Below the pieces are notes generated by a model. The model was not told the DNA's origin and made no database searches. It saw only the letters and a list, made by a program, of their open reading frames with translations. Below, one piece after another: positions 3,938 to 21,227 of a DNA stretch of 64,000 nucleotides. Source of the DNA: Salinibacter ruber DSM 13855 (GTDB lineage Bacteria; Bacteroidota; Rhodothermia; Rhodothermales; Salinibacteraceae). How positions within the stretch are numbered: the stretch's first letter is position 1; each line of letters opens with the position of its first letter. A program made the position numbers and the translations under genes. Where the stretch lies: positions 496,001-560,000 of the forward strand of contig NC_007677.1 in the NCBI RefSeq assembly GCF_000013045.1. Direction: 5' to 3'.

Positions 3938-4028
3938 TGAGCCCGTCTGGTGTTGAGGGGACGCCACACAACGCCCCTGCGACGTCAGAGCCACGAAGGG
4001 GCAGATCGCTGGTCGATTGCCCCGGCTT

Positions 4029-4040
4029 GGGACCGCTTCC
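4029..4040. promoter_or_regulatory. Putative LacI-family operator, left copy (GGGACCGCTTCC)
   Basis: This 12-bp near-palindrome with a central CG matches the sites at 13262-13273 and 19805-19816. With the copy at 4051-4062 it forms a perfect 14-bp inverted repeat (TTGGGACCGCTTCC / GGAAGCGGTCCCAA, arms 4027-4040 and 4051-4064, 10-bp gap). No T-run follows, so a terminator is unlikely. Confidence 0.6.
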
Positions 4041-4050
4041 AAAAGGAGGT

Positions 4051-4062
4051 GGAAGCGGTCCC
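4051..4062. promoter_or_regulatory. Putative LacI-family operator, right copy (GGAAGCGGTCCC)
   Basis: This is the mirror copy of the site at 4029-4040. Its centre is 22 bp (two helical turns) from the first copy and about 46 bp upstream of the predicted -10 box of the SusC promoter. That is the same spacing as at the two other operator-promoter pairs in the locus. Confidence 0.65.
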
Positions 4063-4078
4063 AAAAGATAACAGTTCC

Positions 4079-4108
4079 TTGATCTGACAGACCCCGTCGG
4101 GGTATCAT
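4079..4108 (+). promoter_or_regulatory. Predicted promoter of the susC-susD genes
   Basis: TTGATC at 4079-4084 and TATCAT at 4103-4108 are separated by 18 bp. They match the sigma-70 consensus at 4 of 6 and 5 of 6 positions. The -35 box begins 17 bp after the right-hand operator. Transcription would start near 4115, leaving a leader of about 119 nt before the ATG at 4234. Confidence 0.5.
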
Positions 4109-4233
4109 GGAAGCGCATCCATCGGACAGGCCGTCGATGCGAAGCAGTAGGTCAACCGAAATCGGACGGTCTGAGACGTCCACGACGCCGTCTCTATTGC
4201 GCTCCCCCCTCACGGACTGCAGGTCACACCGCC

Positions 4234-7200
4234 ATGCCCCCCTTCGTCTCTTCGTATTCGTCTTTTAAGATCGTGTTGACGGCCGTCTTCGGGGTCCTGC
4301 TTGCTTGCGGGCTGCCGGGGGGAGTGCAGGCCGTGCACGCACAGGATTTCGAGGTGACCGGCACCGTCGTGTCCGCCGACAATCAGTCTCCGCTTCCGGG
4401 GGTGAACATTCGAGAGGCGGGCACCAGCCGAGGGACCGTCACAGGCCCGGACGGAGGGTTCAGTCTTGCGGTGGACAGTCCCCAGGACACCCTCACGTTT
4501 TCGTTCATCGGGTACCAGACGAAAACGGTCCCGGTCGACGGGCGCTCAGAGATTCGCGTCGTGCTTGAGACGGAATCACAGGAGCTTGAGGGGGTTGTAG
4601 TGACGGCGCTTGGCATCGAGCGGCAGCAGCGCTCCGTAGGCTACGCGACGAGCAGTATTGAGGCCCAGGACCTCGTGGACGTCACGGAATCCAATCCGGC
4701 GAACTTACTACAGGGAAACGTGCCGGGACTGGTTCTCAGCTCCAATGCGTCCGGTCCGAACTCATCCTCAAGCATCAACATCCGTGGCGTCTCGTCGATT
4801 GCGGGAAATAACGACCCGCTCTTTATCGTGGACGGGGTTCCCATCGACAACACGGTCATTGGAGGGGCTGGCAAGTTTGGCGGTCGGGATGGAGGAAGTG
4901 CGCTGTCAGTAGTAAGTCCGGAGAACATCTCGGACATCTCCGTGCTGAAGGGGGCCGGGGCCGCCGCGCTTTACGGCACCCGGGCCCGAGACGGGGTGGT
5001 ACTGATCACGACGAAGACGGGCCGCACGTCGGCCCCGGGGGAGGTGAGCGTGCAGTACAGCTCCACGGTCACGGCCAAGGATGTTATCAGCGGCTTCTCC
5101 GACTTCCAAAGCCAGTACGGACAAGGCACGCAGGGCCGGGCGCCGTCGAATCAGGACGCGGCGCTCAGCGCCGGTCTTTCGAGTTGGGGAGCCCCGCTTG
5201 GTGAGGTGGACGAGGCTCCTCAGTTTGACGGGACGGTGCGGCCGTATGACGATGTGGCCGACCGACAGGGGTTTTACCGAACAGGACTCTCGCAGCGGCA
5301 CTCGCTGTCGATCAATGCAGGCTTCGAGAACACCTCGCTCCGCTTGTCGGCGTCGCACCAGAACACCGAAGGCGTCGTCCCGAATTCGGGGTACGAGCAG
5401 ACCAACATCAACCTTCGGGGGCAGACCCGACTCGGGGGACTCACGGCCGACGCAAGCGTCACGTACCAGAATGAGCTCACGGACAACCGGACGTTTCTGA
5501 ACGATGCGGCCCGGAATCCGAACTACCTGATCTCGTTTCTGCCGAACAACATTCCCAAAAGCGCCCTGCAGCCGGGTGCGACCGAGGAGGGCGTTGAGAA
5601 GCAATTTACCTCCGACGGGCTTCCGACCAACCCCTACTGGGCCGTCAATGAGCTGGAGGCCGACGACGACAAGGACCGTATTCTCGGAAATGTCAACCTG
5701 AACTACTCGATCAACGACTGGCTTTCCCTACAGGGACAAACGGGGCTCGACTGGTACTCGCTCCGGCGCACGAACGTCGATGCGTTTGGGTCCGCGTTCG
5801 AGCCGGGCGGATCCATGACAGAGGACACCTACCGGGTGTGGGAGAGCAACTCGAAGCTTTTGGCGACCGCGACGCCCTCCCTCACCGATGAGCTTTCGCT
5901 CCGGCTCGACGTGGGGGGCAGTCTGCGACACCGCCAGTTTGAACAGGTGGGCGTCTTCGGGCGAAACTTCAGCATTCCCGACCTAGAGACAATCTCCAAC
6001 ACGGCCAACCCCACTCGCAACTACGACTTCTCGGAGCAGCAAATCCGCTCCTTCTTCGGGTCGGCGTCCTTCACCTACCGAAACTACTTGTTCCTCACGC
6101 TGACGACGCGCAGTGACTGGTCCTCAACCCTTCCGGAGGACAACAATCCATTCGTATACCCGTCGGTAAGCGGAAGCTTCGTCTTCACCGACGCCTTCGA
6201 CCTGCCGGACGCACTGAGCTACGGCAAAGTCCGGGCCTCCTGGGCGGAGATCGGGGGGGATACGGATCCGTACCGGACCAGTCTGACCTATGGCATCATC
6301 GGGCAGCACCAAGGGCAGGCCCTCGAAACGATCACACAGCTGAGCGTCCCCCTGCTCGACCTGAAGCCGACGTCCACGCGAGAGATTGAGCTCGGATTCG
6401 AGACGCAGTTTTTCAACGACCGGTTCGGCGTCGACTTTACCTGGTACCGCCGCAGCACGGTCGACCAGATTCTGGACGTCACCGTGTCGTCGGCGTCAGG
6501 CTACACGGCGCGGACGGCAAACAGCGGCGAGATCCGAAATACAGGCGTGGAGCTGCTCCTGACGTCGATCCCATTCTCGACGGCGGACTGGACCTGGGAT
6601 TCGAGGGTCAACTTCGCGGCGAACCGAAGTCAGGTTGAGTCCCTCGCGCCGGGCCTCGATGTGCGGGTAGGGCCGGAAAACCGGCTGGCCACGGCCAACA
6701 TTGCCCAGGTTGTTGGGCAGCCGGCCAATGCGATTTACGGGAATACGTACGTCCGCGACGATCAGGGCCGCATCGTCCACGGGGAGGACGGACTGCCCCT
6801 GTCGGGAGAAAAAGAAGTGCTGGGCACCGGCGCCCCCGACTGGACGCTCGGCTTCTCGAATACAATCTCCTACCAGAATGTCAGCCTGGACTTTCTGATC
6901 GACGCGAAGTGGGGGGGCAAGGTCTTCTCCGGAACCAACGCCAACGCCTACGGCAACGGCCTCCACAAGGCGACGCTCGACGCCCGGGCGGCCTGTGACG
7001 AGCAAGCTGGCTCAAACGGCCGGTATCCGGAGGACTGCTTTGTTGGAGAAGGCGTGATCGGCAGCGTTAACGGCGAGGGGGAGGTCACCGTCGACCGCCA
7101 GAACGATGTCGGCGTTCGGCCCTCCGAGTACTACGGACGGATCTCCGGGGAGATTGCCGAGGAGTTCGTCTACGACGCCAACTTCATCAAGCTCCGCCAG

Positions 7201-7419
7201 CTCCGGTTGAGCTACGACCTCCCGAGCAGCGTGATGAGCCGTGTGCCGGTGCGTAGTGCGAGCGTTTCGGTGGTAGGCCGAAACCTGTTTTATCTGTACG
7301 ACTCGGTACCGAATATCAGTCCCGAGTCGAGTTACAACAGCGAAGCCACGCCGGGCTTCGAGCAGGCGGGCGTTCCGCAGTCGCGCAGTATTGGTGCATC
7401 GGTCAATCTCCGGTTCTGA
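4234..7419 (+). CDS. SusC/RagA-family TonB-linked outer membrane protein
   Basis: The protein has 1061 residues, the usual length for SusC-type oligosaccharide porins. Order of parts: signal peptide (1-37, ending AVHAQ), a CarboxypepD-regulatory-like domain (about 38-122, with GTVVSADNQSPLPGVNI), the plug with its characteristic ELEGVVVTALG entry and DGVPIDN, then a 22-strand type beta-barrel ending in an aromatic C-terminal residue (SVNLRF). It imports oligosaccharides across the outer membrane, powered by TonB, as a complex with the SusD lipoprotein encoded 55 bp downstream. The promoter and double operator upstream suggest control by the local LacI-type regulator. The substrate is inferred from the neighbouring GH20 and NagZ-type enzymes to be a GlcNAc-containing oligosaccharide. 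Confidence 0.93.
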   Translation: MPPFVSSYSSFKIVLTAVFGVLLACGLPGGVQAVHAQDFEVTGTVVSADNQSPLPGVNIREAGTSRGTVTGPDGGFSLAVDSPQDTLTFSFIGYQTKTVPVDGRSEIRVVLETESQELEGVVVTALGIERQQRSVGYATSSIEAQDLVDVTESNPANLLQGNVPGLVLSSNASGPNSSSSINIRGVSSIAGNNDPLFIVDGVPIDNTVIGGAGKFGGRDGGSALSVVSPENISDISVLKGAGAAALYGTRARDGVVLITTKTGRTSAPGEVSVQYSSTVTAKDVISGFSDFQSQYGQGTQGRAPSNQDAALSAGLSSWGAPLGEVDEAPQFDGTVRPYDDVADRQGFYRTGLSQRHSLSINAGFENTSLRLSASHQNTEGVVPNSGYEQTNINLRGQTRLGGLTADASVTYQNELTDNRTFLNDAARNPNYLISFLPNNIPKSALQPGATEEGVEKQFTSDGLPTNPYWAVNELEADDDKDRILGNVNLNYSINDWLSLQGQTGLDWYSLRRTNVDAFGSAFEPGGSMTEDTYRVWESNSKLLATATPSLTDELSLRLDVGGSLRHRQFEQVGVFGRNFSIPDLETISNTANPTRNYDFSEQQIRSFFGSASFTYRNYLFLTLTTRSDWSSTLPEDNNPFVYPSVSGSFVFTDAFDLPDALSYGKVRASWAEIGGDTDPYRTSLTYGIIGQHQGQALETITQLSVPLLDLKPTSTREIELGFETQFFNDRFGVDFTWYRRSTVDQILDVTVSSASGYTARTANSGEIRNTGVELLLTSIPFSTADWTWDSRVNFAANRSQVESLAPGLDVRVGPENRLATANIAQVVGQPANAIYGNTYVRDDQGRIVHGEDGLPLSGEKEVLGTGAPDWTLGFSNTISYQNVSLDFLIDAKWGGKVFSGTNANAYGNGLHKATLDARAACDEQAGSNGRYPEDCFVGEGVIGSVNGEGEVTVDRQNDVGVRPSEYYGRISGEIAEEFVYDANFIKLRQLRLSYDLPSSVMSRVPVRSASVSVVGRNLFYLYDSVPNISPESSYNSEATPGFEQAGVPQSRSIGASVNLRF

Positions 7420-7474
7420 CTGCGGGCCCACCCCGACCTCCTCTACTCTCCCCCTTACTCCATATACTCCCGCC

Positions 7475-9100
7475 ATGCCGTTTCTGACTCGCTCGCGAAT
7501 TGCTCGTGTTGCTTCCCTCCTCTCCGCCGGAGTGCTGGCACTCGTCCTCCTGTCCTGTGATGGGGTAGGGGACTTCGGGGACACGAACGAGGACCCCACG
7601 ACCGCCAATGATCCGAATCCGGACCTGGAGTTCACAACGCTCCAGCTCGGGGTCTCTGGGAGCCGGTTTGATATGTGGCGCACGAATCTGATCTACACGA
7701 TGCCGATCGTGCAGCATATCGCAAACCCGGGCTTCTACGCGGGCAATTTCAACCAGTACGTGGGGGCCTGGTCGGCGTCCTTCTTCGACACGCGGTACGG
7801 GGGAGGGCCCAATGGGTCGAATTTTCTCCGCACCGTCACCAACGCCGAGACCCTCATCAGCGAGCTTGAAGGAAAGCCTCGTCAGGTTAATCGGCTGGCG
7901 GCCACCCGCATCATGCGTGTGCTCACGTTTCAACGTCTCACTGATGTCTACGGGGACGTTCCGTACTTCGACGCAGGAAAGGGCGCGCTGGAGGGCGAAT
8001 TCACGCCCCACTACACACGCCAGGACAGCATTTATATGGACCTGCACGATGAGCTCCGGGCGGCGGTCGATCAGTTCGACGCATCGCAACCCACGTTTGG
8101 AGGTGCAGATCTATTCTTCAACGGCAGCATCGAGCAGTGGAAACGATTCGCCAACTCGCTGCAGTTGCGCCTGGCCCTCCGTGTCGTGAAGGTGCGGCCG
8201 GACCTGGCGCAGAGCTGGGCCGAGGAGGCGGTCAACGCCGACGGGGGGGTCATGCAGAGTGTCGAAGATGATGCCTACGTGCCTCACCAATCGGGGCCGT
8301 CGGGCGGTCCGGCGGGCTTCAATACGAACGCCCACAGTGAGGTCATGCAGAGCTTCCCGGGACAGTGGCTCAGCGAGACGTTCGTGGATTGGATGAAGGA
8401 TAAAAGCGACCCCCGTCTCACCGAGTATGGAGCGCTCGCTCCGGGGGGGCTCGACAGTGCACTGGTTGAGGATCCGGCCCAGCAGCGCGGTATGCCCAAC
8501 GGGTTTGATAACAACGAGCTCGCGGCGAGCAACGAGTACACCGACGACCTAGACCAGTACACGCGCATCCACCCGAACCTTCGGGACCGAAACGATCCGA
8601 TGTTCTTCCAGACCTACGCGGAGGTGGAGCTGATGCTCGCCGAGGCGGCGGTGCGGGGCTGGAACGTGCCCGGATCGGCGGAGGCCCACTACGAAGCAGG
8701 GGTGCGGGCGGCCATGAACTATATCACCCGGTACGGAGAGAACACGAGCGTGAGCGATTCGGAGATCACCCAGTATCTTTCCGACAATTCTCTCCCGAGC
8801 GGACGAGAAGCGCGCCTGCGGGCGATCAACAACCAGTACTGGGCGGCGACCTTCCTCAATGGAATCGAGTCCTGGTCAAACTGGCGTCGGTCGGGCTATC
8901 CGGAACTGACTCCTGCTCCGGAGGAAGGGGACACCGGCGGCCAGTTCATTCGGCGTCTGGACTATCCACAGGGCGAGAGGGACCTCAATGGCGATAACTA
9001 CCAGGAGGCCCGTGAGCGGCAGAACATCACGCAGTCGAACCGCCTCACGGCGCGGGTGTGGTGGGACTGTGGGGCGTACGCCGACCAGTGCGCCGAATGA
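7475..9100 (+). CDS. SusD/RagB-family surface glycan-binding lipoprotein
   Basis: The protein has 541 residues. ATG 7475 was chosen because it is followed by a lipoprotein signal peptide with lipobox LVLLSC (Cys about residue 28). The mature protein looks like the SusD-like_2 group (TNEDPTTANDPNPD near the N-terminus, then SusD-type TPR helices, for example RIMRVLTFQRLTDVYGDVPY and YAEVELMLAEAAVRGW). It sits on the cell surface as the lid of the SusC porin and captures oligosaccharide. It is 55 bp downstream of the SusC gene and followed by a strong terminator hairpin, so susC-susD form a discrete transcription unit. Confidence 0.92.
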   Translation: MPFLTRSRIARVASLLSAGVLALVLLSCDGVGDFGDTNEDPTTANDPNPDLEFTTLQLGVSGSRFDMWRTNLIYTMPIVQHIANPGFYAGNFNQYVGAWSASFFDTRYGGGPNGSNFLRTVTNAETLISELEGKPRQVNRLAATRIMRVLTFQRLTDVYGDVPYFDAGKGALEGEFTPHYTRQDSIYMDLHDELRAAVDQFDASQPTFGGADLFFNGSIEQWKRFANSLQLRLALRVVKVRPDLAQSWAEEAVNADGGVMQSVEDDAYVPHQSGPSGGPAGFNTNAHSEVMQSFPGQWLSETFVDWMKDKSDPRLTEYGALAPGGLDSALVEDPAQQRGMPNGFDNNELAASNEYTDDLDQYTRIHPNLRDRNDPMFFQTYAEVELMLAEAAVRGWNVPGSAEAHYEAGVRAAMNYITRYGENTSVSDSEITQYLSDNSLPSGREARLRAINNQYWAATFLNGIESWSNWRRSGYPELTPAPEEGDTGGQFIRRLDYPQGERDLNGDNYQEARERQNITQSNRLTARVWWDCGAYADQCAE

Positions 9101-9139
9101 GCTCGGGGGGGCTACCGTTTCCGCCGAGAAAACCACAGG

Positions 9140-9167
9140 GGAGGGCCTACGCGGGCCCTCCTTTTTT
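9140..9167 (+). terminator. Rho-independent terminator after the susD gene
   Basis: The 8-bp stem GGAGGGCC (9140-9147) and GGCCCTCC (9154-9161) encloses a 6-nt loop and is followed directly by six T residues. It lies only 35 bp before the GH20 start codon, so GH20 expression probably depends on read-through or on a promoter overlapping the hairpin. Confidence 0.8.
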
Positions 9168-9202
9168 CTTTGCTTGTTTTCCGCCTGCGCTTCGCCCGCT
9201 CC

Positions 9203-11827
9203 ATGCGTCACATTTTGCTTTCCTTCCTCCTTCTGCTCTTTGGCGGGACCTTGGCCGCGCACGCCCAGTCCGACGCCACGCATCCGCCCGCCGACGAGCT
9301 TTCCATCCGCTGGGGCGTGGAGACGAATCGGGTGGACGACGGAAACCGATTTCGGTCGTCGTTCACGATTGCGAACCACGGGGACGTGGCGCTGGGCACG
9401 ACGCATTGGACGCTCTACTTCAACTTCTCGCGCCAGATCGACCCGGCGAGCGTGACGGCGCCGGTGCGCATCACGCGGCTCAACGGCGACTTCTATCGGC
9501 TGGAGCCGGACGCCGACCTCCCCCCGATCGAGCCCGGCGACCAGCTGCGGGTGACGGTCGAGGCCCCCGGGTCGGTCATCAAGCGCATCGACGCCCCGGC
9601 CGGCTTCTACGTCGTGTTCAAGGACGCGGAGGGCCGGGCCCGGCCGCCGGCCGTCGTGTCGGACGTGACCGTTGAGCCCTTCACCCGTCCCGCCCAGACG
9701 TCCCGCGGCCCGGGCGACACCTGGCCCGTCCCGACCCCCGCGACCCGGTACGCGGACCACCGCTCCCTCACGGCCCGCCCGCCCGACGCGGAGGGACGCA
9801 TTGTGCCGACGCCGGACTCCATCCATCGGCGTCCCGGGGCGTTTGCGCTCCGGGCGGACGCGACCATCCGCTACGAGGCGGGGCTGGCCGCCGAGGCCCG
9901 GCAGCTCGCGGCGGGGCTGGCCGCGGCGCTGGGACGACGGCCCCGAACGACCCGGACGGATTCCGCCGCCGCCATCACGCTCCGCCGCGCCGAGGCACCG
10001 CGGCCCGCCGTCGATACGGCGTCGGCCGAGGCCTACCGGCTCACGGTCGATCCGGAGACGGGCATCACCATCACGGGCGCGACCGACGCGGGCGTGTTCT
10101 ACGGGGGGCAGAGCCTGGAGGCCTGGCTCCCGGTGGCGGCCTACCGGGCGCCGTCGTCGCCGGTGGACGTGCCGGCCGTCCAGGTCCTGGACGCGCCCCG
10201 ATTTGACCATCGGGGGCTCCACCTCGACGTGGCGCGCAACATGCAGTCGGTGGCGGCGGTGAAGCGGCTCCTCGACATCATGGCCTTCTACAAGCTGAAC
10301 ACCTTTCACTTCCACCTCACCGACGACGAGGGGTGGCGCCTGGCCGTCGAGGGCTTGCCCGAGCTGACCCGTGTGGGCGGCCGCCGCGGCCACACGCTCG
10401 ACGAGCAGGCCCACCTGATGCCGTCCTACGGGTCCGGGCCCAGCCCGTCCCCCGAGGCGTCGCGCGGAAGCGGCTGGTACAGTCGGGCGGACTACCTCGA
10501 CATCCTGCGCTACGCGAAGGCGCGCCACATCACCGTCATGCCCGAGATCGATGTGCCCGGCCACGCCCGCGCCGCCATCCAGGCGATGGAGGCCCGGACG
10601 CGCCGACTCCGGGCGGCGGGAGACACGGCGGCGGCCCGCGCGTACCGGCTTCGAGACCCGGCCGACACGTCGGATTACGAGTCCGTGCAGGGGTGGGACG
10701 ACAACGTGATGAACGTGTGTCGCCCATCCACCTACCGATTCCTGTCGACCGTCGTCGATGAGCTGCGGGGCCTGCACGAGGCGGCGGGGGCGCCGCTCCC
10801 GGCCGTCCACGTGGGCGGGGACGAGGTGCCGGAGGGCGCGTGGGCGGGCTCTCCCATCTGCGACGACTACATCGCGCGCACCGAGGGGGTCGACGGGGCC
10901 GACGATCTCTTCGGCCACTTTCTGGGCCGGTTTCAGGACACACTCGCCACGCGGGGGATTGCCATGGCGGGGTGGGAGGAGGTGGGGCTGGAAGAGGCCG
11001 ATCACCGGTCCGCAACCACAACCCCGAACGAGGCCCTGGTCGACGACGACGTTCAGCCCTACGTCTGGAGCAACATCTGGGGCGGCGGGACCGAAGACCG
11101 CGCCTACCGGCTGGCCAACGCGGGCTACGACGTGGTGATGGCGCAGGCGACCAACTTCTACTTCGACATGGCCTACAGCAAGCACCCCCGAGAGGACGGC
11201 TACTACTGGGCCGGCTTCGTCGACACGAAGGCCCCGTTTGCCTTCGTGCCGTTCGACCTCTACAAGAGCGCCGACCGCACGAGGATGGGGCACCCCATCG
11301 ACCCCGATACGGCCTTTGCCGATCAGGTGCGCCTCGCCGACACCGCGCGGAACAACATTCGGGGCCTGCAGGGACAGCTCTGGGGGGAGACCCTGCGCAA
11401 ACCCGACCGGATGGAGTACATGGCCGTCCCGCGGCTTCTGAGCCTCGCCGAACGGGCGTGGGCCCCGCGGCCCGGCTGGGCCACGCTCGACGACAGCGGG
11501 GCACTCCGGGCCCGGCGGGCCGAGGCATGGACGGCGTTTGCAAATCGGCTCGGGCACCGTGAGCTGCCCCGCCTGAGCATTCGCCACCCGGACTGGTCGT
11601 ACCGGCTCCCCCCGCCCGGGGCCACGGTGGAGGCGGGGACGCTGAGGGCGAACGTGGCCCTGCCCGGGCTGGCGGTCCGCTACACCACCGACGGCACCCG
11701 CCCGACCGCCACGTCGCCCCGATACACCGCCCCGGTGCCGGTTCCCGAGGGGGCCACCGTCCGACTGCGGACGTTCGACACGCTGGGGCGGGGCGGCCGG
11801 ACCGTCACGGTCCCCACATCCCCGTAG
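9203..11827 (+). CDS. GH20 beta-N-acetylhexosaminidase, exported (chitobiase type)
   Basis: The enzyme has 874 residues. ATG 9203 gives a signal peptide (MRHILLSFLLLLFGGTLAAH, cleavage after AHAQ). Domains in order: CHB_HEX-like carbohydrate-binding domain (about 28-160), GH20b alpha/beta domain (about 190-310), GH20 catalytic barrel (about 330-740) beginning RFDHRGLHLDVARN, and a C-terminal CHB_HEX_C-like domain (about 795-874). The catalytic Asp-Glu pair is in HVGGDEVP near residue 538. GH20 enzymes release terminal beta-linked GlcNAc/GalNAc by substrate-assisted catalysis. The four-domain layout matches bacterial chitobiases, so chitooligosaccharides are the favoured substrate; muropeptide sugars are an alternative. 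Likely periplasmic. Confidence 0.92.
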   Translation: MRHILLSFLLLLFGGTLAAHAQSDATHPPADELSIRWGVETNRVDDGNRFRSSFTIANHGDVALGTTHWTLYFNFSRQIDPASVTAPVRITRLNGDFYRLEPDADLPPIEPGDQLRVTVEAPGSVIKRIDAPAGFYVVFKDAEGRARPPAVVSDVTVEPFTRPAQTSRGPGDTWPVPTPATRYADHRSLTARPPDAEGRIVPTPDSIHRRPGAFALRADATIRYEAGLAAEARQLAAGLAAALGRRPRTTRTDSAAAITLRRAEAPRPAVDTASAEAYRLTVDPETGITITGATDAGVFYGGQSLEAWLPVAAYRAPSSPVDVPAVQVLDAPRFDHRGLHLDVARNMQSVAAVKRLLDIMAFYKLNTFHFHLTDDEGWRLAVEGLPELTRVGGRRGHTLDEQAHLMPSYGSGPSPSPEASRGSGWYSRADYLDILRYAKARHITVMPEIDVPGHARAAIQAMEARTRRLRAAGDTAAARAYRLRDPADTSDYESVQGWDDNVMNVCRPSTYRFLSTVVDELRGLHEAAGAPLPAVHVGGDEVPEGAWAGSPICDDYIARTEGVDGADDLFGHFLGRFQDTLATRGIAMAGWEEVGLEEADHRSATTTPNEALVDDDVQPYVWSNIWGGGTEDRAYRLANAGYDVVMAQATNFYFDMAYSKHPREDGYYWAGFVDTKAPFAFVPFDLYKSADRTRMGHPIDPDTAFADQVRLADTARNNIRGLQGQLWGETLRKPDRMEYMAVPRLLSLAERAWAPRPGWATLDDSGALRARRAEAWTAFANRLGHRELPRLSIRHPDWSYRLPPPGATVEAGTLRANVALPGLAVRYTTDGTRPTATSPRYTAPVPVPEGATVRLRTFDTLGRGGRTVTVPTSP

Positions 11828-12103
11828 GACTTGCGAAGGGGGCTGTCCTGCCGCGAGGCGGATAGAGCGTAGGGGAGGCGCATCCGGTCCCGGGGGCAGA
11901 ATGAAGCAGGCCGTGCGAGGGACGAGAAAAGGCGGTGCGGGGGGCGTACGCCGCCGAGGCACTCCACGGGTTGTCTCCCTCGTTTCGACGTCCTACCTTG
12001 TGGGCACGGCAAAGCCCCTGTCTCCGGAGGCACAGTGTCGCCCCCCTCGGTTCTGTGTGCGCGATGGGTACGTCGACTTTTTAACACACGCCCCAATCCC
12101 GCC

Positions 12104-13129
12104 ATGGAAGACGACATGACCATTGATCAGGTGGCCGAGCTGGCGTACGTCTCCCGGTCGGTGGTGTCCCGCGTGCTGAACGACCACCCCAATGTCAGCG
12201 AGGAGGCCCGAGAGCGGGTGATGCGGGTGATCGAAGAGCACGACTACCGCCCCAGCTCGGTTGCCCGGAGCCTCGCCACCGACCGCTCCTTCGAGATTAG
12301 TGTGCTCACCCCCCGGCGGGGAGACGAGTCGCTGGCCAACGGCTACTGGCCGCTGCTGTACTCGGGGCTCTTCGAGCGGTGCCTGGAGCGCGGGTATTTC
12401 GTATCGCTGTCGATGGTCTCCGACCGGATGGAAGACGAGATTGAGGACCGGGCCCGGGATTCCCGGTTCGACGGGTACGTCCTGGTGACGACGGAGGTCA
12501 CGGACCTCGTTGCGTCGACGCTCGAAGCGGACGGGGCCCCGACGGTGCTCATCGGACAGGACACGAGCTGGGACGCCTTCAGCTCCGTCGACATCGACAA
12601 CGAGCAAGGGGGGTACGAGGCGGGCCGTCACCTCTGCGACCTCGGGTACGAAGAGATCGGGTTGATTCTGGGAAGTCGGGCCCTGGAGGAGTCCGCACAC
12701 CGGCGACAGGGCGTCGAGCGGGCCCTGTCGGAGGCCGGGATTGCAGTGTCGGACCGGCACGTCGCCGAGGGGGACTACTCCCAAGAGAGCGGGCACTCCA
12801 TCGTCCGGGCGTGGGCGGAACAGGGGCGGATGCCCCGGGCCCTGTTCTGTGCCAGCGACACGATGGCGATGGGCGCCCTGCTCGCGCTCAACGAGGCCGG
12901 CTACGCGGTCCCCGACGAGGTCGCACTCGTCGGGTTTGACGACCTGCCCGCCGCCCAGTACACCATTCCCCCGCTTACGACCGTCCGCCAGCCGGTGTAC
13001 GAGAAGGGACAGGCGGCGATCGACCTGCTCATCGACCACATCGAAAACGCCGAGCCCAATCCCGAGCACACGGAGCTTGAGCCGGAGCTCGTGGTGCGGC
13101 AGAGCTGCGGGGCCCGGCAGAACCCGTAG
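12104..13129 (+). CDS. LacI-family transcriptional regulator
   Basis: The protein has 341 residues from ATG 12104; a second ATG at 12116 (MTIDQVAEL) is equally possible. The N-terminus is a LacI-type helix-turn-helix (TIDQVAELAYVSRSVVSRVL) followed by the hinge helix (YRPSSVARSL, about residues 48-57). A periplasmic-binding-protein-like effector domain follows, with the usual FCASDTMAMGALLAL and VALVGFDDLPAAQYTIPP segments. It is the only regulator inside the amino-sugar locus. The repeated palindromes in front of the SusC, CBM9-like and kinase genes have the central CG expected of LacI operators, so it is their likely ligand-responsive regulator. No copy of the motif was seen before this gene itself. 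Confidence 0.9.
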   Translation: MEDDMTIDQVAELAYVSRSVVSRVLNDHPNVSEEARERVMRVIEEHDYRPSSVARSLATDRSFEISVLTPRRGDESLANGYWPLLYSGLFERCLERGYFVSLSMVSDRMEDEIEDRARDSRFDGYVLVTTEVTDLVASTLEADGAPTVLIGQDTSWDAFSSVDIDNEQGGYEAGRHLCDLGYEEIGLILGSRALEESAHRRQGVERALSEAGIAVSDRHVAEGDYSQESGHSIVRAWAEQGRMPRALFCASDTMAMGALLALNEAGYAVPDEVALVGFDDLPAAQYTIPPLTTVRQPVYEKGQAAIDLLIDHIENAEPNPEHTELEPELVVRQSCGARQNP

Positions 13130-13261
13130 CTTGGGGGCGCCACGGCGGAACGCCCCGCGGTCGAAACAGACGACGAACATCCCACCACGAAGACCGCGGG
13201 CGGGGGCTCGGTCGAACGATGCGTCGCCTCGTGACGCCCCTCATTTTGCCGACGAGGGTTT

Positions 13262-13273
13262 GGAAGCGGTTCC
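13262..13273. promoter_or_regulatory. Putative LacI-family operator before the CBM9-like gene (GGAAGCGGTTCC)
   Basis: This 12-bp site is palindromic at 5 of 6 base pairs around a central CG. It is the reverse complement of the copy at 19805-19816. Its centre lies about 45 bp upstream of the predicted -10 box of the following gene. Confidence 0.65.
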
Positions 13274-13288
13274 GATTTTCCGTCCCCA

Positions 13289-13317
13289 TTGCGGACCGAT
13301 CCTGTGCCTTCTATTCT
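13289..13317 (+). promoter_or_regulatory. Predicted promoter of the CBM9-like gene
   Basis: TTGCGG (13289-13294) and TATTCT (13312-13317) are separated by 17 bp. The -35 box starts 16 bp after the operator. A start near 13324 would leave a leader of about 29 nt before the ATG at 13353. Confidence 0.45.
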
Positions 13318-13352
13318 GTGAGGCGCTGCTTTTCCCGTCGGCCCGCGGTTCC

Positions 13353-14483
13353 ATGCGACGCTTTCTCTTGACGACGATCGTCGGCGTTTTCGTTCTCGTC
13401 CTCGCAGGGGGCGAGTCGGTCTCCGCCCTGGTGGGGCGGCCCTCGGGGGACGCCGCGAAAAACAATCCCGAGAGCGAGGCGCCCCCGCGCACCTACGCCA
13501 TCTACCGCGCGTCCGGACCGATTGCCGTGGACGGGCGGCTCGACGAACGCGACTGGGCCGCGGCGCCGTGGACCGCCGACTTCGTCGACATTCGTGGGCG
13601 CGACGCCCCGACGCCGCGGTTCCGCACCCGGGCCAAGATGCTGTGGGACGACGAGGCCCTTTACGTGGCGGCCTCCCTCGAGGAGCCGGACGTGTGGGGC
13701 ACCCTCACCCAGCGGGACACGGTGGTGTACTACGACGATGACTTCGAGGTCTTCATCGACCCCAACGGAACGACGCACAACTACTACGAGGTGGAGGTGA
13801 ACGCGCTCGAGACCGTGTGGGACCTGATGCTCCTGAAGCCCTACCGCGACGGCGGACCGGCCGTCGACGCCTGGGACGTACGGGGCATCGACGCGGCCGT
13901 GCACGTGCAGGGCACACTCAACGACCCCTCGGACACCGACGACGGGTGGACGGTGGAGATAAAGCTGCCGTGGTCGTCGTTGGAAGAGGCCGCCCCCGGC
14001 GGACGTCCGCCCCAGGCCGGCGAGCAGTGGCGCCTCAACTTCTCGCGGGTCGACTGGCCCCTTGCCGTCAAGAATGGCACCTACGAAAAGGACCTCGACA
14101 CCACGAAGGCGCATCCGGAGCGCAACTGGGTGTGGTCGCCGCAGGGAGCCATCGACATGCACCGGCCCGAACACTGGGGCATCGTGCAGTTCGCGGACGC
14201 CGAGGTCGGCACCGCGACCGTGTCCGTCGACGAGCGCCCCAATCGGCGCGTCAAGGCGGCCCTGCGGCGCCTCTACCACCGTCAGCGGGCGCACCACGAG
14301 GCGCATGGCACGTACGCCGGGTCCCTCTCGGCCCTCAACGCCTCGAACGTGCAGCTTCCCGAGCGCGATTTTGCCCCCACGCTCCGCACGACCCAGACGA
14401 TGTACGAAATCGCGGCGCCCGGGGCGGAGGGAACGACCGTGCACATCCGTCAGGACGGAAAGGTCTGGGTGACCGGGGAGTGA
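13353..14483 (+). CDS. Exported carbohydrate-binding family 9-like protein
   Basis: The protein has 376 residues. ATG 13353 is followed by a signal peptide (MRRFLLTTIVGVFVLVLAGG). The CBM9-like domain occupies about residues 48-240: it opens with the typical IAVDGRLDERDWAAAPW, continues with MLWDDEALYVAASLEEPDVWG and DDDFEVFIDPNG, and ends with WTVEIKLPWSSL. The last 110 residues hold a helical segment (RRVKAALRRLYHRQRAHH) and a short beta region. Such proteins bind sugars at the cell envelope and often accompany polysaccharide-utilisation genes. An operator and promoter lie directly upstream, which separates this gene from the LacI gene 223 bp before it. Confidence 0.82.
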   Translation: MRRFLLTTIVGVFVLVLAGGESVSALVGRPSGDAAKNNPESEAPPRTYAIYRASGPIAVDGRLDERDWAAAPWTADFVDIRGRDAPTPRFRTRAKMLWDDEALYVAASLEEPDVWGTLTQRDTVVYYDDDFEVFIDPNGTTHNYYEVEVNALETVWDLMLLKPYRDGGPAVDAWDVRGIDAAVHVQGTLNDPSDTDDGWTVEIKLPWSSLEEAAPGGRPPQAGEQWRLNFSRVDWPLAVKNGTYEKDLDTTKAHPERNWVWSPQGAIDMHRPEHWGIVQFADAEVGTATVSVDERPNRRVKAALRRLYHRQRAHHEAHGTYAGSLSALNASNVQLPERDFAPTLRTTQTMYEIAAPGAEGTTVHIRQDGKVWVTGE

Positions 14484-14791
14484 GGCCGGAGGAGGGCGGC
14501 GCCCACACGTCGAACTGAGCAGCCGTTTTGCGTCTCGCCATGACCAGTTGGCAGCGATCTTCGGACCCCACTGTGGAGCCGGCTAGGACTGTGAAGCTCG
14601 GGGCCCGGACCGATCCGAATGCCCGAAATCGAGCGGAGGAAGGGGGCGTTGAGCCACAGTCGTCGACCGGCGGGCCCTGGGCGCGCCGCCGTGGACGCTC
14701 CCCCACGGGACGGCCCGTGCCCGAGGCCGCCTGACCCCTCCGCCCGCGCCGTCTCTCTGTTTGTTTTTCCTGGTTGGCCCCGCCCCTGCCC
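14484..14791. other. Intergenic region, 308 bp
   Basis: GC-rich spacer between the CBM9-like gene and the first sodium:solute symporter. I see no operator copy, no convincing terminator and no short gene. A T-rich tract (14757-14768) lies just before the symporter start. Confidence 0.4.
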
Positions 14792-16636
14792 GTGACAAGC
14801 TTCGACTGGTTTTTTGTCGCCGCCTACCTGATCCTCTCCTTTGGCATCGCGCTCTACTTCTACCAGCGGGCCGGGGAGGACACCTCGGAGTTCTTCCTGT
14901 CGGGCCGCGCGATGCCCTGGTGGCTGGCCGGGACGAGCATGGTGGCCACCACGTTTGCCGTCGACACGCCGCTTCTGGTGACGGAGATTGTGGCCCAGAA
15001 CGGCATCGCGGGCAACTGGCTCTGGTGGAACGCCGCCATCGGGGGGATGCTCACCGTCTTCTTCTTTGCCCGCCTCTGGCGCCGAAGCGGCGTCATGACG
15101 GACGTGGAGTTCGTCGAATTCCGGTACAGCGGGCGGGTGGCCGCGTGGCTGCGTGGCCTGAAGGCGCTCTTTTTCGGCCTTCTGCTGAACATCCTCATCA
15201 TCGGGTGGGTGTCGCTGGCGATGGAGACGGTGATCGACCGGCTCTTTCCCGACCTCACCCTGTTCGGGCAGGCGGCCTTTTCGGTGCTGGGGCGGGAGAT
15301 GAGCGCGGCGCTCGTGGTGACGGGCGGGCTGATCCTGCTGGTGTCCGTCTACGCGCTGCTGTCGGGGCTCTGGGGCGTGATGGTGACGGACCTGTTCCAG
15401 TTCGTGGTGGCGATGGGGGGCACAATCGCGCTCGCCGTGCTCGTGCTCGACATGCCGGAGATTGGCGGGGTGGCGGGTCTTCGCGAGCAGCTTCCGGACG
15501 AGACGTTCAACCTGCTGCCCACGATCGGCGGGGCGGCGGAGGGGGCGGCGACCTTTTCGCTCTCGGCGCTGGCCTTCGCAGCGTACGCCGGGGTGCAGTG
15601 GTGGGCCAGCTGGTATCCGGGGGCCGAGCCGGGCGGCGGCGGCTACATCGCGCAGCGCATGATGAGCGCGAAGGACGAGCCGAACGCCCTCTTCGCCACG
15701 CTCTGGTACACCATCGCCCACTTCTGCCTGCGCCCCTGGCCCTGGATCATCGTGGCGCTGGCCGCACTGGTGCTGTACCCGGACCTCGACGAGCCGCGCG
15801 CCGGGTTCGTCCTGGTGATGAAGGACGTGCTGCCGCCCGGCCTGCTCGGGCTCCTCTTTGCGTCCTTCCTGGCGGCGTTCATGAGCACGGTGTCCACGCA
15901 GCTGAACTGGGGCGTTTCGTACCTCGTCAACGACTTCTGGGGGCGCTTCGTGCGGCCCGACGCGGACGAGGCCCACTACGTGCGCGTCTCGCGGGTCCTC
16001 ACGTTCGGGGTGGCCCTGCTGAGCCTCGTCGTCACCCTCTTCCTGGACACCATCGCCGAGGCGTGGGGCCTGCTGCTGTCCGCCTCCGCCGGGCTGGGGC
16101 TCGTCCTCATCCTGCGCTGGTACTGGTGGCGCGTAAATGCGTGGAGCGAGATGGCGGCCACCCTGGCCCCGATCGGGCTGACCGTGGCGGCCCTCGTCCT
16201 CAACGTGTTTGGGGTGCAGGTGCCGGGCCTGCAGGCGGACTTTCCCCTGAACCTCTACTCGGTGGTCGGGTTTACGACGGTCGTCTGGCTCGCGGCCACC
16301 TTCCTCACGCGCCCGACCGACGCGGAGACGCTCGATGCGTTCTACCGGACGGTCCATCCCGGCGGGCCCGGCTGGACGCCCGTGGCGGAGCGACACCCCG
16401 ACGTGACGCCGGACTCCGGGCTCGGGCGGCTCGCGCTCGACTGGCTCGTGGGGGTCGTGCTCGTGTACAGCACCCTCTTCGGCACCGGGTATCTCATTCT
16501 GGGGTGGACGCTCTGGGGCGCCGGCTGCATCGCGGTCGCGCTGACGGCGGCGGCGTACCTGTGGCGGGACCTGCAGCGGGACGAGATCTCGCTGATTGAA
16601 ATGAAAGAGGAGAAGGACGCGACGGAAGAACGATAG
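14792..16636 (+). CDS. Sodium:solute symporter (SSS family), first copy
   Basis: The protein has 614 residues from GTG 14792; a TTG at 14774 would add six residues. The sequence is almost all transmembrane helices. SSS hallmarks are visible: SEFFLSGRAMPWWLAGTSMV near residues 31-50 (the usual FxxGGRxLPWWxxGxS stretch), the sodium-site region and a long helical C-terminus (about 13 helices). Relatives import sugars, amino acids or sialic-acid-type molecules with Na+. Its place between the CBM9-like and GH3-fusion genes suggests an amino sugar such as GlcNAc or MurNAc as substrate, which is inference. Its stop is 47 bp before the GH3 gene, so the two are probably co-transcribed. A Na+ symporter suits a halophile. 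Confidence 0.88.
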   Translation: MTSFDWFFVAAYLILSFGIALYFYQRAGEDTSEFFLSGRAMPWWLAGTSMVATTFAVDTPLLVTEIVAQNGIAGNWLWWNAAIGGMLTVFFFARLWRRSGVMTDVEFVEFRYSGRVAAWLRGLKALFFGLLLNILIIGWVSLAMETVIDRLFPDLTLFGQAAFSVLGREMSAALVVTGGLILLVSVYALLSGLWGVMVTDLFQFVVAMGGTIALAVLVLDMPEIGGVAGLREQLPDETFNLLPTIGGAAEGAATFSLSALAFAAYAGVQWWASWYPGAEPGGGGYIAQRMMSAKDEPNALFATLWYTIAHFCLRPWPWIIVALAALVLYPDLDEPRAGFVLVMKDVLPPGLLGLLFASFLAAFMSTVSTQLNWGVSYLVNDFWGRFVRPDADEAHYVRVSRVLTFGVALLSLVVTLFLDTIAEAWGLLLSASAGLGLVLILRWYWWRVNAWSEMAATLAPIGLTVAALVLNVFGVQVPGLQADFPLNLYSVVGFTTVVWLAATFLTRPTDAETLDAFYRTVHPGGPGWTPVAERHPDVTPDSGLGRLALDWLVGVVLVYSTLFGTGYLILGWTLWGAGCIAVALTAAAYLWRDLQRDEISLIEMKEEKDATEER

Positions 16637-16683
16637 GGGGAAAGAGGGGGAGTCTGTGTGTTTTCTGAACGGCTTGTGCCACC

Positions 16684-19623
16684 ATGATGTCTTCGTCTCG
16701 ACGCTCGTTCATGGCCGCGGGGCTCGTGGTCGTTCTCGCGGTCGCCGCTCTAATTTTTGGGGCGCCGGGCCCGGTCCCCCTCTCGGCGGGGTCCTCGATG
16801 TCGGATCGGGGGGCTGCGGACACGGCGGAGGCCCCGCCCAAATCGAGCTGGGCCGGGCGCCAGTTTCGGGACATGACGCTCGACGAGAAGATCGCGCAGC
16901 TCTTCGTGGTCCGGATCGACGGGGAATTCCAAAACGCGAACACCCCCTCGTACCGCGAGACCGTCGCGCTCGTCGAGGAGTTTGGGGCGGGCGGGCTCAT
17001 CTTTGGGCCGGGCACGCCGATGACCCAGATTGCGATGGCCAACGACCTGCAGGCGAAGGCCGAACGGCCCCTCCTCGTGGCGCAGGACACGGAGTGGGGC
17101 GTGGGCATGCGCATCGACGCGGCCACCTCGTTCCCGCCGGCCATGGCGATCGGGGCCACGCGGGACGCGTCCCACGCCTACCGGGTGGGCTACGCAACGG
17201 CCCGGGAGGCCCGTGCGCTCGGCGTGCACCAGCTCTACGCGCCGGTGGCGGACGTCAACAACAACCCCAAGAACCCCATCATCAACGTCCGCTCGTTCGG
17301 CGAGTCGCCCTCCCTGGTGGGGACCATGGCGTCGGCCTTCACCCGGGGGGCGCAGCGCGGCGGCACCCTCGCGACGGTGAAACACTTTCCCGGCCACGGC
17401 GACACGGACGTCGATTCGCACATCAACCTGCCGGTCCTTCGGTTCGACCGAAGCCGCCTCGACTCCCTCGAACTGCCGCCGTTCCGGCAGGCCTTCGACG
17501 CGGGCGTGCGGAGCGTCATGACCGGCCACCTCGCCCTCCCCGAAATTGCGGCGGACAGCGTGCCGGCCACCCTCTCCCGCCCCCTGACGCACGGCCTTCT
17601 ACGGGAGGAGCTCGGGTTCGACGGACTCGTGGTGACCGACGCCCTGAACATGCAGGCCGTCACCCGCACGTTTGGCGTCGGCGAGACGGCGGTGCGCGTG
17701 CTGGAGGCGGGGGCGGACCTCGTGCTCATGTCCACCAACCCGCACGCGGCACACCAGGCGGTCCGGCAGGCGGTGACCAGCGGGCGCATCGACACGACCG
17801 AGATCAACGACTCGGTGCGGCGGCTCCTGAGGGTGAAGCAGGACCTCCGCCTCCACGAGACGCGGCGGGTCTCGCTCGACACGACCCGGCACCGCGTGGC
17901 GCAGCGGTCCCACGAGGTGCTGGCCCGCACGGTGGCCCGCGAGTCGCTCACGCTCCTCGCCAACGCGGATTCCCTGCTGCCCCTCACGCCGCCGGAGCAG
18001 CACGACGCCCTCGTCGTCACGCTCAGTGACAGCGAGTATCCGGGAACGGGCGACACGTTTGTCGACCGGCTCCGGGCCCAGCCCGCCATCGAAACCCTCG
18101 ACACGCGTCGTCTCGACCCGCGCTCCGACTCGACGGACGTAAACGACCACCTGGCGGACGCCGCAGACTACGACGTCGTGGTCGTGCCGTCTTTTCTCCG
18201 CGTGCAGGCGTGGAGTGGGTCCATCGGCCTCAGCGACATGCACCACGACTTCCTCGAGGACCTGGCGGGCACGGACACGCCGGTCGCGTTCGTAGCCTTC
18301 GGCAACCCCTACGCCCCGACGGGCTTAGAGCCCGCCCCGGACGCCATCCTGGCCGCCTACGGCTCCGGCGAGGCGTCGCAGCGGGCCGCCGCGCAGGCGC
18401 TCGGGGGCGGCGCCGGCACGCCGGGGCGCCTGCCCGTCACCATTCCGGGGGTGGCCGAGAAGGGAGAAGGGCGTCGGCTCGCCCCGGTCGCGCCCCGTGA
18501 GGGCCCCCCTGAATCGGTGGGCATGGACGGCGCGCAGCTTGCCCGCCTCGACACGCTGCTCCGCTCGGCCATGCTCGACGGCGCGTTTCCGGGCGCCGCC
18601 GTGGCCGTGGGGCGCGGGCCGGCCCTCGCGCGGCTCGACGCCTACGGCTACCATACCTACGACGAGACGAAACCGGTCCAGACGGGCACCCAGTACGACC
18701 TCGCCTCGCTCACGAAGGTGGTGGCCACCACCACCGCCGTCATGAAGCTCTACGAGGCCGACTCGCTGGAACTGGACGCCCCGGTCGCCCGGTACCTCCC
18801 CGACTTCGCCCAGAACGGCAAGGAGGCGGTCACCGTGCGCCAACTGCTTACCCACTCGTCGGGCCTGAAGCCGTACCTGGACCCCGACGAGCGCGGCCCG
18901 ACGCGCGCGGCGCTCCTCGACACCCTCATGGCGCAGCCGCTCACGTACACGCCCGGCACCCGGTCCACCTACAGCGGGCTCAACGCGATTGCGCTCATGC
19001 GCATCGTGGAAACGATTAGCGGCCGGCCGTTCGATGCGTTCTGCCGAACGCACATCTTCGAGCCGCTCGGGATGGACCAGACGGGGTTCTACGACACCGA
19101 TGTCACCCGGGCGTGGGTGGCGCCCACGACCGACACCGCGGGCACGCGGCGCCGCGGAAGCGTCCACGACCCGATGGCCCGCGACATGGATGGGGTCTCG
19201 GGGAACGCGGGGCTCTTCTCGACGGCCGCCGATCTGGCCCGCTTCGGGTACATGCTGACCCACGAGGGGCGAATCGATGGACGACAGTTCCTGGAGCCGA
19301 AGACGATCGAGACGTTCACCGCCCAGGCCGACGTGCCGGGCAGTACTCGGGCCCTCGGGTGGGACACCAAAAGTGCGGAGGGATACTCCTCGGCCGGGGA
19401 CGAATTTTCGGCAGCGAGCTTCGGGCACACCGGCTACACGGGCACCTCGTTCTGGGTCGATCCGGCGGAGGACCTCTTCTTCGTCCTGCTCACGAACCGC
19501 GTGTACCCGGACGACACCGCCGATCGAATCACGCAGGTGCGTCCGCGGGCGGCCGACATCGTGCACCGCGCGATCGACGGGCCGCCCCGCCCGCTGCTTC
19601 CCGGCCCCGCGCCGGAACAGTGA
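16684..19623 (+). CDS. NagZ-type GH3 beta-N-acetylglucosaminidase fused to a beta-lactamase-like serine hydrolase
   Basis: The protein has 979 residues and starts with an N-terminal signal or anchor segment (about 9-27). The GH3 N-terminal barrel spans about 55-400 with the NagZ signature KHFPGHGDTDVDSH near residue 232, whose His/Asp act as catalytic acid/base, and the nucleophile Asp in VVTDALNM near 316. A GH3 C-terminal domain follows (about 420-600). Residues 615-970 form a class C beta-lactamase/PBP-like domain: SxxK in SLTKV near 675, YSGLN in the Y-x-N position near 763, and GHTGYTG near 914 in place of KTG. This fusion occurs in other Bacteroidota. It would remove GlcNAc from muropeptides or chitooligosaccharides while the second domain acts on a peptide or ester bond. 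Confidence 0.9.
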   Translation: MMSSSRRSFMAAGLVVVLAVAALIFGAPGPVPLSAGSSMSDRGAADTAEAPPKSSWAGRQFRDMTLDEKIAQLFVVRIDGEFQNANTPSYRETVALVEEFGAGGLIFGPGTPMTQIAMANDLQAKAERPLLVAQDTEWGVGMRIDAATSFPPAMAIGATRDASHAYRVGYATAREARALGVHQLYAPVADVNNNPKNPIINVRSFGESPSLVGTMASAFTRGAQRGGTLATVKHFPGHGDTDVDSHINLPVLRFDRSRLDSLELPPFRQAFDAGVRSVMTGHLALPEIAADSVPATLSRPLTHGLLREELGFDGLVVTDALNMQAVTRTFGVGETAVRVLEAGADLVLMSTNPHAAHQAVRQAVTSGRIDTTEINDSVRRLLRVKQDLRLHETRRVSLDTTRHRVAQRSHEVLARTVARESLTLLANADSLLPLTPPEQHDALVVTLSDSEYPGTGDTFVDRLRAQPAIETLDTRRLDPRSDSTDVNDHLADAADYDVVVVPSFLRVQAWSGSIGLSDMHHDFLEDLAGTDTPVAFVAFGNPYAPTGLEPAPDAILAAYGSGEASQRAAAQALGGGAGTPGRLPVTIPGVAEKGEGRRLAPVAPREGPPESVGMDGAQLARLDTLLRSAMLDGAFPGAAVAVGRGPALARLDAYGYHTYDETKPVQTGTQYDLASLTKVVATTTAVMKLYEADSLELDAPVARYLPDFAQNGKEAVTVRQLLTHSSGLKPYLDPDERGPTRAALLDTLMAQPLTYTPGTRSTYSGLNAIALMRIVETISGRPFDAFCRTHIFEPLGMDQTGFYDTDVTRAWVAPTTDTAGTRRRGSVHDPMARDMDGVSGNAGLFSTAADLARFGYMLTHEGRIDGRQFLEPKTIETFTAQADVPGSTRALGWDTKSAEGYSSAGDEFSAASFGHTGYTGTSFWVDPAEDLFFVLLTNRVYPDDTADRITQVRPRAADIVHRAIDGPPRPLLPGPAPEQ

Positions 19624-19804
19624 CGTTGCGACTGCGGGGGGGCGACCCCTAGGGGCGCGGCTCCGGTGTTGGACGGCGGCTCAATGGGAAAAACGGCGAC
19701 TTGAGAGACGGCCGGCGGAGGAGCCCGCCTGGAACCGGTCCCTGTTTTGCTTTCCGTTCCCGCCCAGGCCGGCCGAGACGGCCCTTTGAGCGAAAGGGGG
19801 GGGT

Positions 19805-19816
19805 GGAACCGCTTCC
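19805..19816. promoter_or_regulatory. Putative LacI-family operator before the kinase gene (GGAACCGCTTCC)
   Basis: This is the clearest copy of the motif, extended to 14 bp by flanking T and A (19804-19817). It lies in a 342-bp gap without a gene. Its centre is about 45 bp upstream of a TATACT box. Confidence 0.7.
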
Positions 19817-19832
19817 ATCTTCCACGGGGGCG

Positions 19833-19861
19833 TTCCAGTTCTATGCCCCAGTGCCTATACT
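19833..19861 (+). promoter_or_regulatory. Predicted promoter of the BadF-type kinase gene
   Basis: A weak -35 (TTCCAG, 19833-19838) and a strong -10 (TATACT, 19856-19861) are separated by 17 bp. The -35 begins 16 bp after the operator, as at the CBM9-like gene. A start near 19868 would leave a leader of about 98 nt. Confidence 0.5.
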
Positions 19862-20880: not shown

Positions 20881-21227
20881 GAAAATTCGACGCGTGCGCC
20901 CGGTGGGGGAGACGCACGACGGCGCCATCCGGTGCCCCTGGTCCGACGAGGGGGCGGTGGCACTGCCGACACGCGGGATGGCCTGCCACAGCGGCCACAA
21001 CGGGAGGCGTGCAGAACCGGCGTGAGCCCACCGGGCCCCACCGCCCAGTCCGCCGTGTGGTGCCGCGGCGTGCAGGCGCGCGAGTCAGAGTCGGGCGGAG
21101 GAGGCTGGAGGGCGGCCAAGAGGATAGGAAGCCGCGTTCGCGCTTCTGCGCTCTCACCGTGACGTTGTCCGATGCGAGAAGAGCCCCGCGTCCATCGCTC
21201 CTGAGTTTCCACGTGCCGCTCCGGCCT
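20881..21227. other. Intergenic region, 347 bp
   Basis: Spacer between the kinase and the second symporter. An open frame runs through it joined to the symporter, but its predicted residues (Arg/Pro/Gly-rich, no hydrophobic pattern) do not look coding. I see no operator copy and no terminator. Confidence 0.4.

Follow-up and report, generated by a model that had tools for sequence, protein, structure and literature searches.

What is controlled by a LacI-type operator that lies wholly upstream of the promoters it accompanies, and is the effect positive or negative? The question is raised by a stretch of 64,000 nucleotides of Salinibacter ruber DSM 13855 (contig NC_007677.1, positions 496,001 to 560,000; hereafter the window, whose own numbering is used), in which a short palindrome is repeated before the promoters of a SusC-type transporter gene (susC), a CBM9-like gene and a sugar kinase gene, with a LacI-family regulator gene among them. 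A sequence-only reading had taken the repeat for the operator of a regulon of this LacI-type protein, either activated or repressed by looping. The arrangement of operator and promoter is shared by the genus and reappears elsewhere in the order, next to orthologues of the regulator. The evidence for this is given below, followed by the genes concerned and by the explanations that compete for the mechanism.

The operator and its distance from the promoter

The four copies of the 12-mer GGRACCGCTTCC reported at 4029-4040, 4051-4062, 13262-13273 and 19805-19816 were verified, against 0.07 expected by chance in the window and with none of 100 shuffles reaching four. Of eight exact copies in the whole genome (3,587,328 bases, two contigs), four fall within this 16-kb stretch (Poisson P ~6e-8); the genome-wide scans were pattern searches, while the scan with a position weight matrix (PWM) covered the window. 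The motif is indeed shared, but the 12-mer described as a palindrome is an imperfect one, since its positions 5 and 8 are unpaired; the true unit is the 14-bp palindrome TGGRANCGNTYCCA. With at most one mismatch, TGGRANCGNTYCCA occurs six times in the window (0.64 expected; 0/100 shuffles reached six), and all six copies belong to the three promoters, two of them, at the susC start and upstream of the kinase gene, having gone unnoticed before. The same six give the six best scores of the PWM, which was partly trained on them. When two mismatches are allowed, the 12-mer shows no enrichment in the window (32 found, 25.6 expected), so that useful information comes only from the strict motif or from one that takes the palindrome into account. 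The window has an even palindromic operator with a central CG, close to promoters of local sugar genes, which is a trait of the LacI/GalR family (PMC4052901).

The -35 and -10 pairs read for the three promoters were confirmed (Table 1), as was the interval of 44-47 bp between operator centre and -10 box, which amounts to 46.5 bp at susC, 44.5 bp at CBM9 and 45.5 bp at the kinase gene. The centres lie close to -58, as had been proposed, counting from +1 positions that are themselves predicted; mapped transcription starts for Salinibacter were not found in the open-licence literature. On these predicted starts, the operator has the class I-like trait of standing upstream of the -35 box at a fixed helical spacing. 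The -35 boxes are poor (TTCCAG, TTGCGG, TTGTTA).

The fixed distance is not peculiar to the window. Among 230 oriented operator sites from the window and its relatives, 19 have TTG 14 or 15 nt after the operator and a -10-like TAYNNT 16-18 bp further on, whereas 0.07 would be expected by chance for this gap (~0.04 per position) and 300 shuffles gave no more than 4 for any two adjacent bins. These 19 sites are not independent, and come from about eight promoters whose sequences between operator and -35 box are unrelated (susC, CBM9, nagB and others in genomes G016, G019/G020 and G022). When loci were picked solely by the presence of an orthologue of the LacI protein, the nearest operator being chosen by hand, TT was found at a gap of 13-15 nt in all 11 cases and TTG in 10. 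Common ancestry of the promoters was rejected as the source of the spacing: the sequences from operator to -35 box of susC, CBM9 and the kinase gene are unrelated.

Conservation and the link to the regulator

Comparison of orthologous promoters had been set beforehand as a refutation test for the proposed regulon, and the motif was found to be kept: operators are retained at all three promoters in G015, G012 and G011, so that, with S. ruber (G000), the arrangement is present in four Salinibacter genomes. Across three species none of the 14 bases of the nearest operators varies; 6/6 bases of the -10 boxes and 5/6 to 6/6 of the -35 boxes are likewise invariant, compared with only 22-32% of the upstream flanks. 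The operators of a set also keep their distance from each other, at 22-23 bp for the susC doublet O1-O2 and at 73-75 bp for the kinase sites; the score of 5/14 obtained for O1 in one alignment reflects a one-base gap shift, and the other alignment has O1 conserved. A general description of LacI-family sites reports a 22-bp peak of intersite distances (PMC4052901), which is the O1-O2 distance here. The third susC operator, O3, is unchanged in G015 and G011 and lost in G012. Since G000 and G011 agree in only 61% of the leader downstream of O3 (68/111), the presence of the same O3 in G011 is probably not due to chance. In G022, G016, G020, G002 and G008 the neighbouring genes differ, and operators are still found near the regulator gene. 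G016 and G020 also have a conserved oxidoreductase-like gene preceded by an operator, TGGAACCGGTTCCA; a conserved TTGACT follows this operator at about 27 nt, approximately one helical turn beyond the standard gap.

To follow operator and promoter together, the module operator-N14..17-TTG-N19..21-TAYNNT was searched. It was found in 9 of 27 genomes of the family, eight of which have the LacI orthologue, the ninth genome being 62% complete. It is thus present in 8/10 genomes with the orthologue and in 1/17 without it (Fisher p 1.7e-4, a value that is optimistic because the genomes are related). Among 395 genomes sampled from the phylum, matches concentrate in the order, and outside it they drop to the level of the reversed-pattern control. 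In two other families, G029, G034, G076, G084, G177 and G056 have the module within about 9 kb of a LacI protein of 57-59% identity; matches in G239, G291 and G157, where the best LacI is only 31-37% identical, were set aside as belonging to other regulators or to chance.

The protein encoded at 12104-13129 has the two domains of the LacI/GalR family, an N-terminal helix-turn-helix (PF00356, 59.6 bits) and a periplasmic-binding-protein-like sensor (PF13377, 139.5 bits), and it falls below the cut-off of the CcpA equivalog model TIGR01481 (170.9 bits, cut-off 442.35). Its orthologue in Salinibacter altiplanensis AN15 is 90% identical, and the recognition helix VSRSVVSRVLN is invariant across all orthologues read, while the three other LacI proteins of the genome have IS, TA and AT in place of RS. 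One LacI-family gene with the recognition residues IS lies directly before purC (G000:C1:1881427) and is conserved in relatives. The bare 14-mer is not specific to the 12104-13129 regulator, being found also in genomes without the orthologue; the module as a whole follows the orthologue across species, which supports the regulator as the obvious binder named by the sequence-only reading and argues strongly that it is the protein that binds these operators. Two negative results complete its description: the PWM scan of the window gave no operator for the regulator gene itself, and the C-terminal tetramerisation helix is missing, the alignment to LacI chains stopping near residue 307 (of 360), with some 29 residues left before the end of the protein.

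Genes of the regulon

From the gene order, the operator-bearing promoters appear to head three operons, susC-susD-GH20, CBM9-symporter-GH3 and kinase-symporter, with the regulator gene outside them (Table 1). A relaxed search of the S. ruber genome for the module gave exactly four places, and none with the reversed control. Three are the window promoters, and the fourth, at 3143403 and 2.6 Mb away (promoter G000:C1:3143374-3143458), precedes nagB, with an operator pair of which both sites are upstream. The nagB product is a glucosamine-6-phosphate deaminase (TIGR00502 above cut-off; NF002557, 1007 bits), an enzyme central to the pathway. It is fused to a PIG-L domain, and the fusion might provide the deacetylase activity that the pathway requires. 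The same type of deaminase bears the module in G016, G020, G002 and G056; moreover, G034 has a distal module before a GH18 chitinase gene, a close homologue of which, also with the module, is present in G029. The kinase has Shewanella NagK as its only named match, at 70 bits and under the cut-off of 370.

The targets are thus of the kinds known from NagR-type regulons, with GH20, a NagK-like kinase and NagB, plus GH18 in G034. Since SusCD, GH20, the NagK-like kinase, nagB and, in relatives, a GH18 chitinase come together, the LacI-type protein very probably controls the uptake and use of chitin sugars in Salinibacter and its relatives.

Table 1. Features of the locus and of the distal nagB gene (window positions unless a genome coordinate is given; promoters are predicted)
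Feature	Position	Strand	Remarks
susC operator O1, TGGGACCGCTTCCA	4028..4041	+	22 bp upstream of O2; kept in G015, G012, G011
susC operator O2, TGGAAGCGGTCCCA	4050..4063	+	centre 22.5 bp before -35, about -58.5; 14/14 bases invariant in three species
susC promoter, TTGATC-18-TATCAT	4079..4108	+	-35 at 4079, -10 at 4103; start predicted
susC operator O3, TGGAAGCGCATCCA	4108..4121	+	one mismatch; centred on predicted susC start
SusC-type TonB-dependent outer-membrane transporter	4234..7419	+	TIGR04056, Pfam Plug
SusD-like lipoprotein	7469..9100	+	PF12771; approximate start
GH20 beta-hexosaminidase/chitobiase	9170..11827	+	PF00728, CHB_HEX domains
LacI-family regulator, presumed binder	12104..13129	+	341 aa; PF00356, PF13377
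CBM9 operon operator, TGGAAGCGGTTCCG	13261..13274	+	sole operator there; centre 21.5 bp before -35, about -56.5; also in G022
CBM9 promoter, TTGCGG-17-TATTCT	13289..13317	+	-35 at 13289, -10 at 13312
CBM9-like protein	13353..14483	+	PF06452
Sodium:solute symporter	14774..16636	+	PF00474
GH3 hydrolase fused to beta-lactamase-fold domain	16684..19623	+	PF00933, PF00144
Kinase far operator, TGGAACCGGTCCCT	19730..19743	+	one mismatch; 74 bp upstream of near operator
Kinase near operator, TGGAACCGCTTCCA	19804..19817	+	centre 22.5 bp before -35, about -57.5
Kinase promoter, TTCCAG-17-TATACT	19833..19861	+	-35 at 19833, -10 at 19856
BadF/BadG-type sugar kinase, NagK-like	19966..20880	+	PF01869; NF046058 70 bits, cut-off 370
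Second sodium:solute symporter	20877..22781	+	PF00474; true start probably near 21228
nagB fused to PIG-L de-N-acetylase-like domain	G000:C1:3143524-3145488		GMC-type oxidoreductase gene divergent from nagB

Other observations concern single genes or sites. In the second operon, a GH3 hydrolase (NagZ/BglX-like) and a serine hydrolase domain with the beta-lactamase fold form one 979-aa protein. Between a divergent NAD-dependent epimerase-like gene (27934-29124, minus strand) and an AsnC-type regulator gene (29246, plus strand) there are two weaker operator-like sites, at window positions 29082-29136 and separated by 41 bp. LacI-type palindromes were also found before pckA (CGGAAGCGCTTCCA, G000:C1:2269413) and ppsA (TGAAAGCGCTTCCA, G000:C1:1434125), gluconeogenic genes that are controlled elsewhere by Cra-type LacI proteins; these sites may belong to another LacI paralogue, and the LacI-like sites of pckA, ppsA and uvrB were excluded from the regulon for their other geometries.

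Sign of regulation and known systems

The explanation that we favour, with a probability of about 0.5 for the whole, is that of a local regulon for N-acetylglucosamine (GlcNAc) and chitooligosaccharides, run by the LacI-family regulator from a fixed site at about -57. The bound dimer would touch RNA polymerase, through the C-terminal domain of the alpha subunit or through sigma region 4; this contact would activate transcription, and a chitin-derived ligand (GlcNAc, chitobiose or a phosphorylated product) would promote the active form. Further operators upstream would strengthen binding at susC, the kinase gene and nagB, and the weaker O3, which covers the predicted susC start, may limit or repress transcription from the susC promoter. 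Contact with RNA polymerase, rather than simple promoter occlusion, is suggested because promoters that are otherwise unrelated hold the spacing to within about 1 bp.

Of the sequence-only reading, the shared operator, the single LacI-type binder, the one regulon and a functional spacing hold across species; looping is unlikely, for reasons given below, and activation is plausible. The geometry leaves the sign open, because E. coli GalR, bound at -60.5, represses P1 and activates P2 (PMC4693257). Activation is nevertheless favoured, weakly and at roughly even odds, because sites of CcpA upstream of the -35 box generally activate (PMC3463425) and the -35 boxes here are poor. More tentatively, and at somewhat below even odds, the regulator may be a dedicated, sugar-responsive activator of the LacI family that serves a complete chitin regulon, SusCD included, and does so in several families of the order, always through a single class I-like contact near -57.

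Several points weigh against activation. O3 sits over the predicted susC start and favours repression there, LacI proteins mostly repress, and a ligand that promotes their action is, to our knowledge, unusual in the family. The functionally closest protein, NagR of Shewanella, is a repressor released by GlcNAc (PMC3223726), and GalR at nearly the same place represses one promoter as well as activating another (PMC4693257).

These points lend weight to contact repression, in which the same protein, sugar-free and bound at about -57 in the same regulon, would block open-complex formation until released by chitin sugars. Fixed spacing is accounted for equally well in this way, GalR at -60.5 does repress gal P1 through contact (PMC4693257), NagR offers a precedent for release by GlcNAc (PMC3223726), and O3 is kept in G015 and G011. 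Nevertheless, the precedents for LacI-type sites wholly upstream of the -35 box are mostly of activation (PMC3463425), the GalR promoter closer in spacing is the activated one (P2, 43.5 bp to the -10 box, against 44.5-46.5 bp here), and no obvious gain would follow from avoiding overlap with the core promoter at CBM9, the kinase gene and nagB. Contact repression is hence quite possible without being probable.

A Lac-type looping or cooperative repressor, with pairs of operators bridging the promoter, is unlikely. It would give a purpose to the operator sets of susC (O1/O2/O3), the kinase gene (far and near) and nagB (pair), but the tetramerisation helix is missing and CBM9 has a single operator. 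Moreover, operators flank the promoter on both sides at susC only, a loop between the kinase or nagB sites, all upstream, would not enclose the promoter, and looping would not require a spacing to the -35 box exact to 1 bp. It is very improbable that another LacI-type protein of the genome binds these sites: genomes without the orthologue do contain the bare 14-mer, and S. ruber has LacI-like sites at pckA and ppsA, but it is this LacI that the module, unlike the bare motif, tracks, the other three proteins carry IS, TA or AT in place of RS, and a TA-type relative in G005 has TGTAAGCGCTTACA just upstream. Finally, a chance motif, or a spacing due to duplication of one promoter, has nothing in its favour beyond the shortness of the motif, and is refuted by the conservation in G015, G012 and G011, besides the counts far above shuffles and reversed controls and the unrelated sequences between operator and -35 box.

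With the nearest operator at one helically fixed place upstream of every promoter found, the regulon would be a clean natural system for studying the choice between activation and repression in the LacI family. It also provides a testable GlcNAc/chitin regulon for halophiles and their relatives, the distal nagB having been found by the same rule, and an operator-plus-promoter signature directly searchable in genomes.

LacI-family proteins are the standard example of repressors; where they are known to activate, as with CcpA and Cra, this is mostly secondary to a main role in repression. In its recognition helix, CelR of actinobacteria has an arginine at the same position as the regulator described here. 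A reported CelR-like operator variant, TGGGA(A/T)CG(A/T)TCCCA (PMC3377646), is very similar to the present motif; CelR differs in its targets, cellulases and cellobiose transport, and in its phylum. CcpA of Bacillus subtilis shares the LacI-family dimer, a cre-type palindrome with central CG and sites upstream of the -35 box whose effect depends on the helix face (PMC3463425), but is global, HPr-dependent and mainly a repressor. With GalR the proposed likeness is contact with RNA polymerase from upstream without promoter overlap. The predicted centres, -56.5 to -58.5, fall between the GalR positions -60.5 (operator OE) and -55.5, and the distances to the -10 box between the 43.5 bp of P2 and the 48.5 bp of P1, as calculated from published positions (PMC4693257). 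GalR differs in serving two overlapping promoters of opposite sign from one site and in having a second operator inside galE, which supports looping with HU.

The closest system in function and target types is that of Shewanella oneidensis NagR, a LacI-family local regulator of GlcNAc and chitin use with transport, kinase, NagB-type deaminase and hexosaminidase genes among its targets (PMC3223726); unlike the present case, it is a proven repressor and has no SusCD locus. The present regulon was not found described in the open-licence papers searched. A LacI-type GlcNAc regulon is already known from Shewanella, and what is new here is that the operator has a uniform upstream placement, that this placement is conserved across an order and that it is linked to a SusCD locus.

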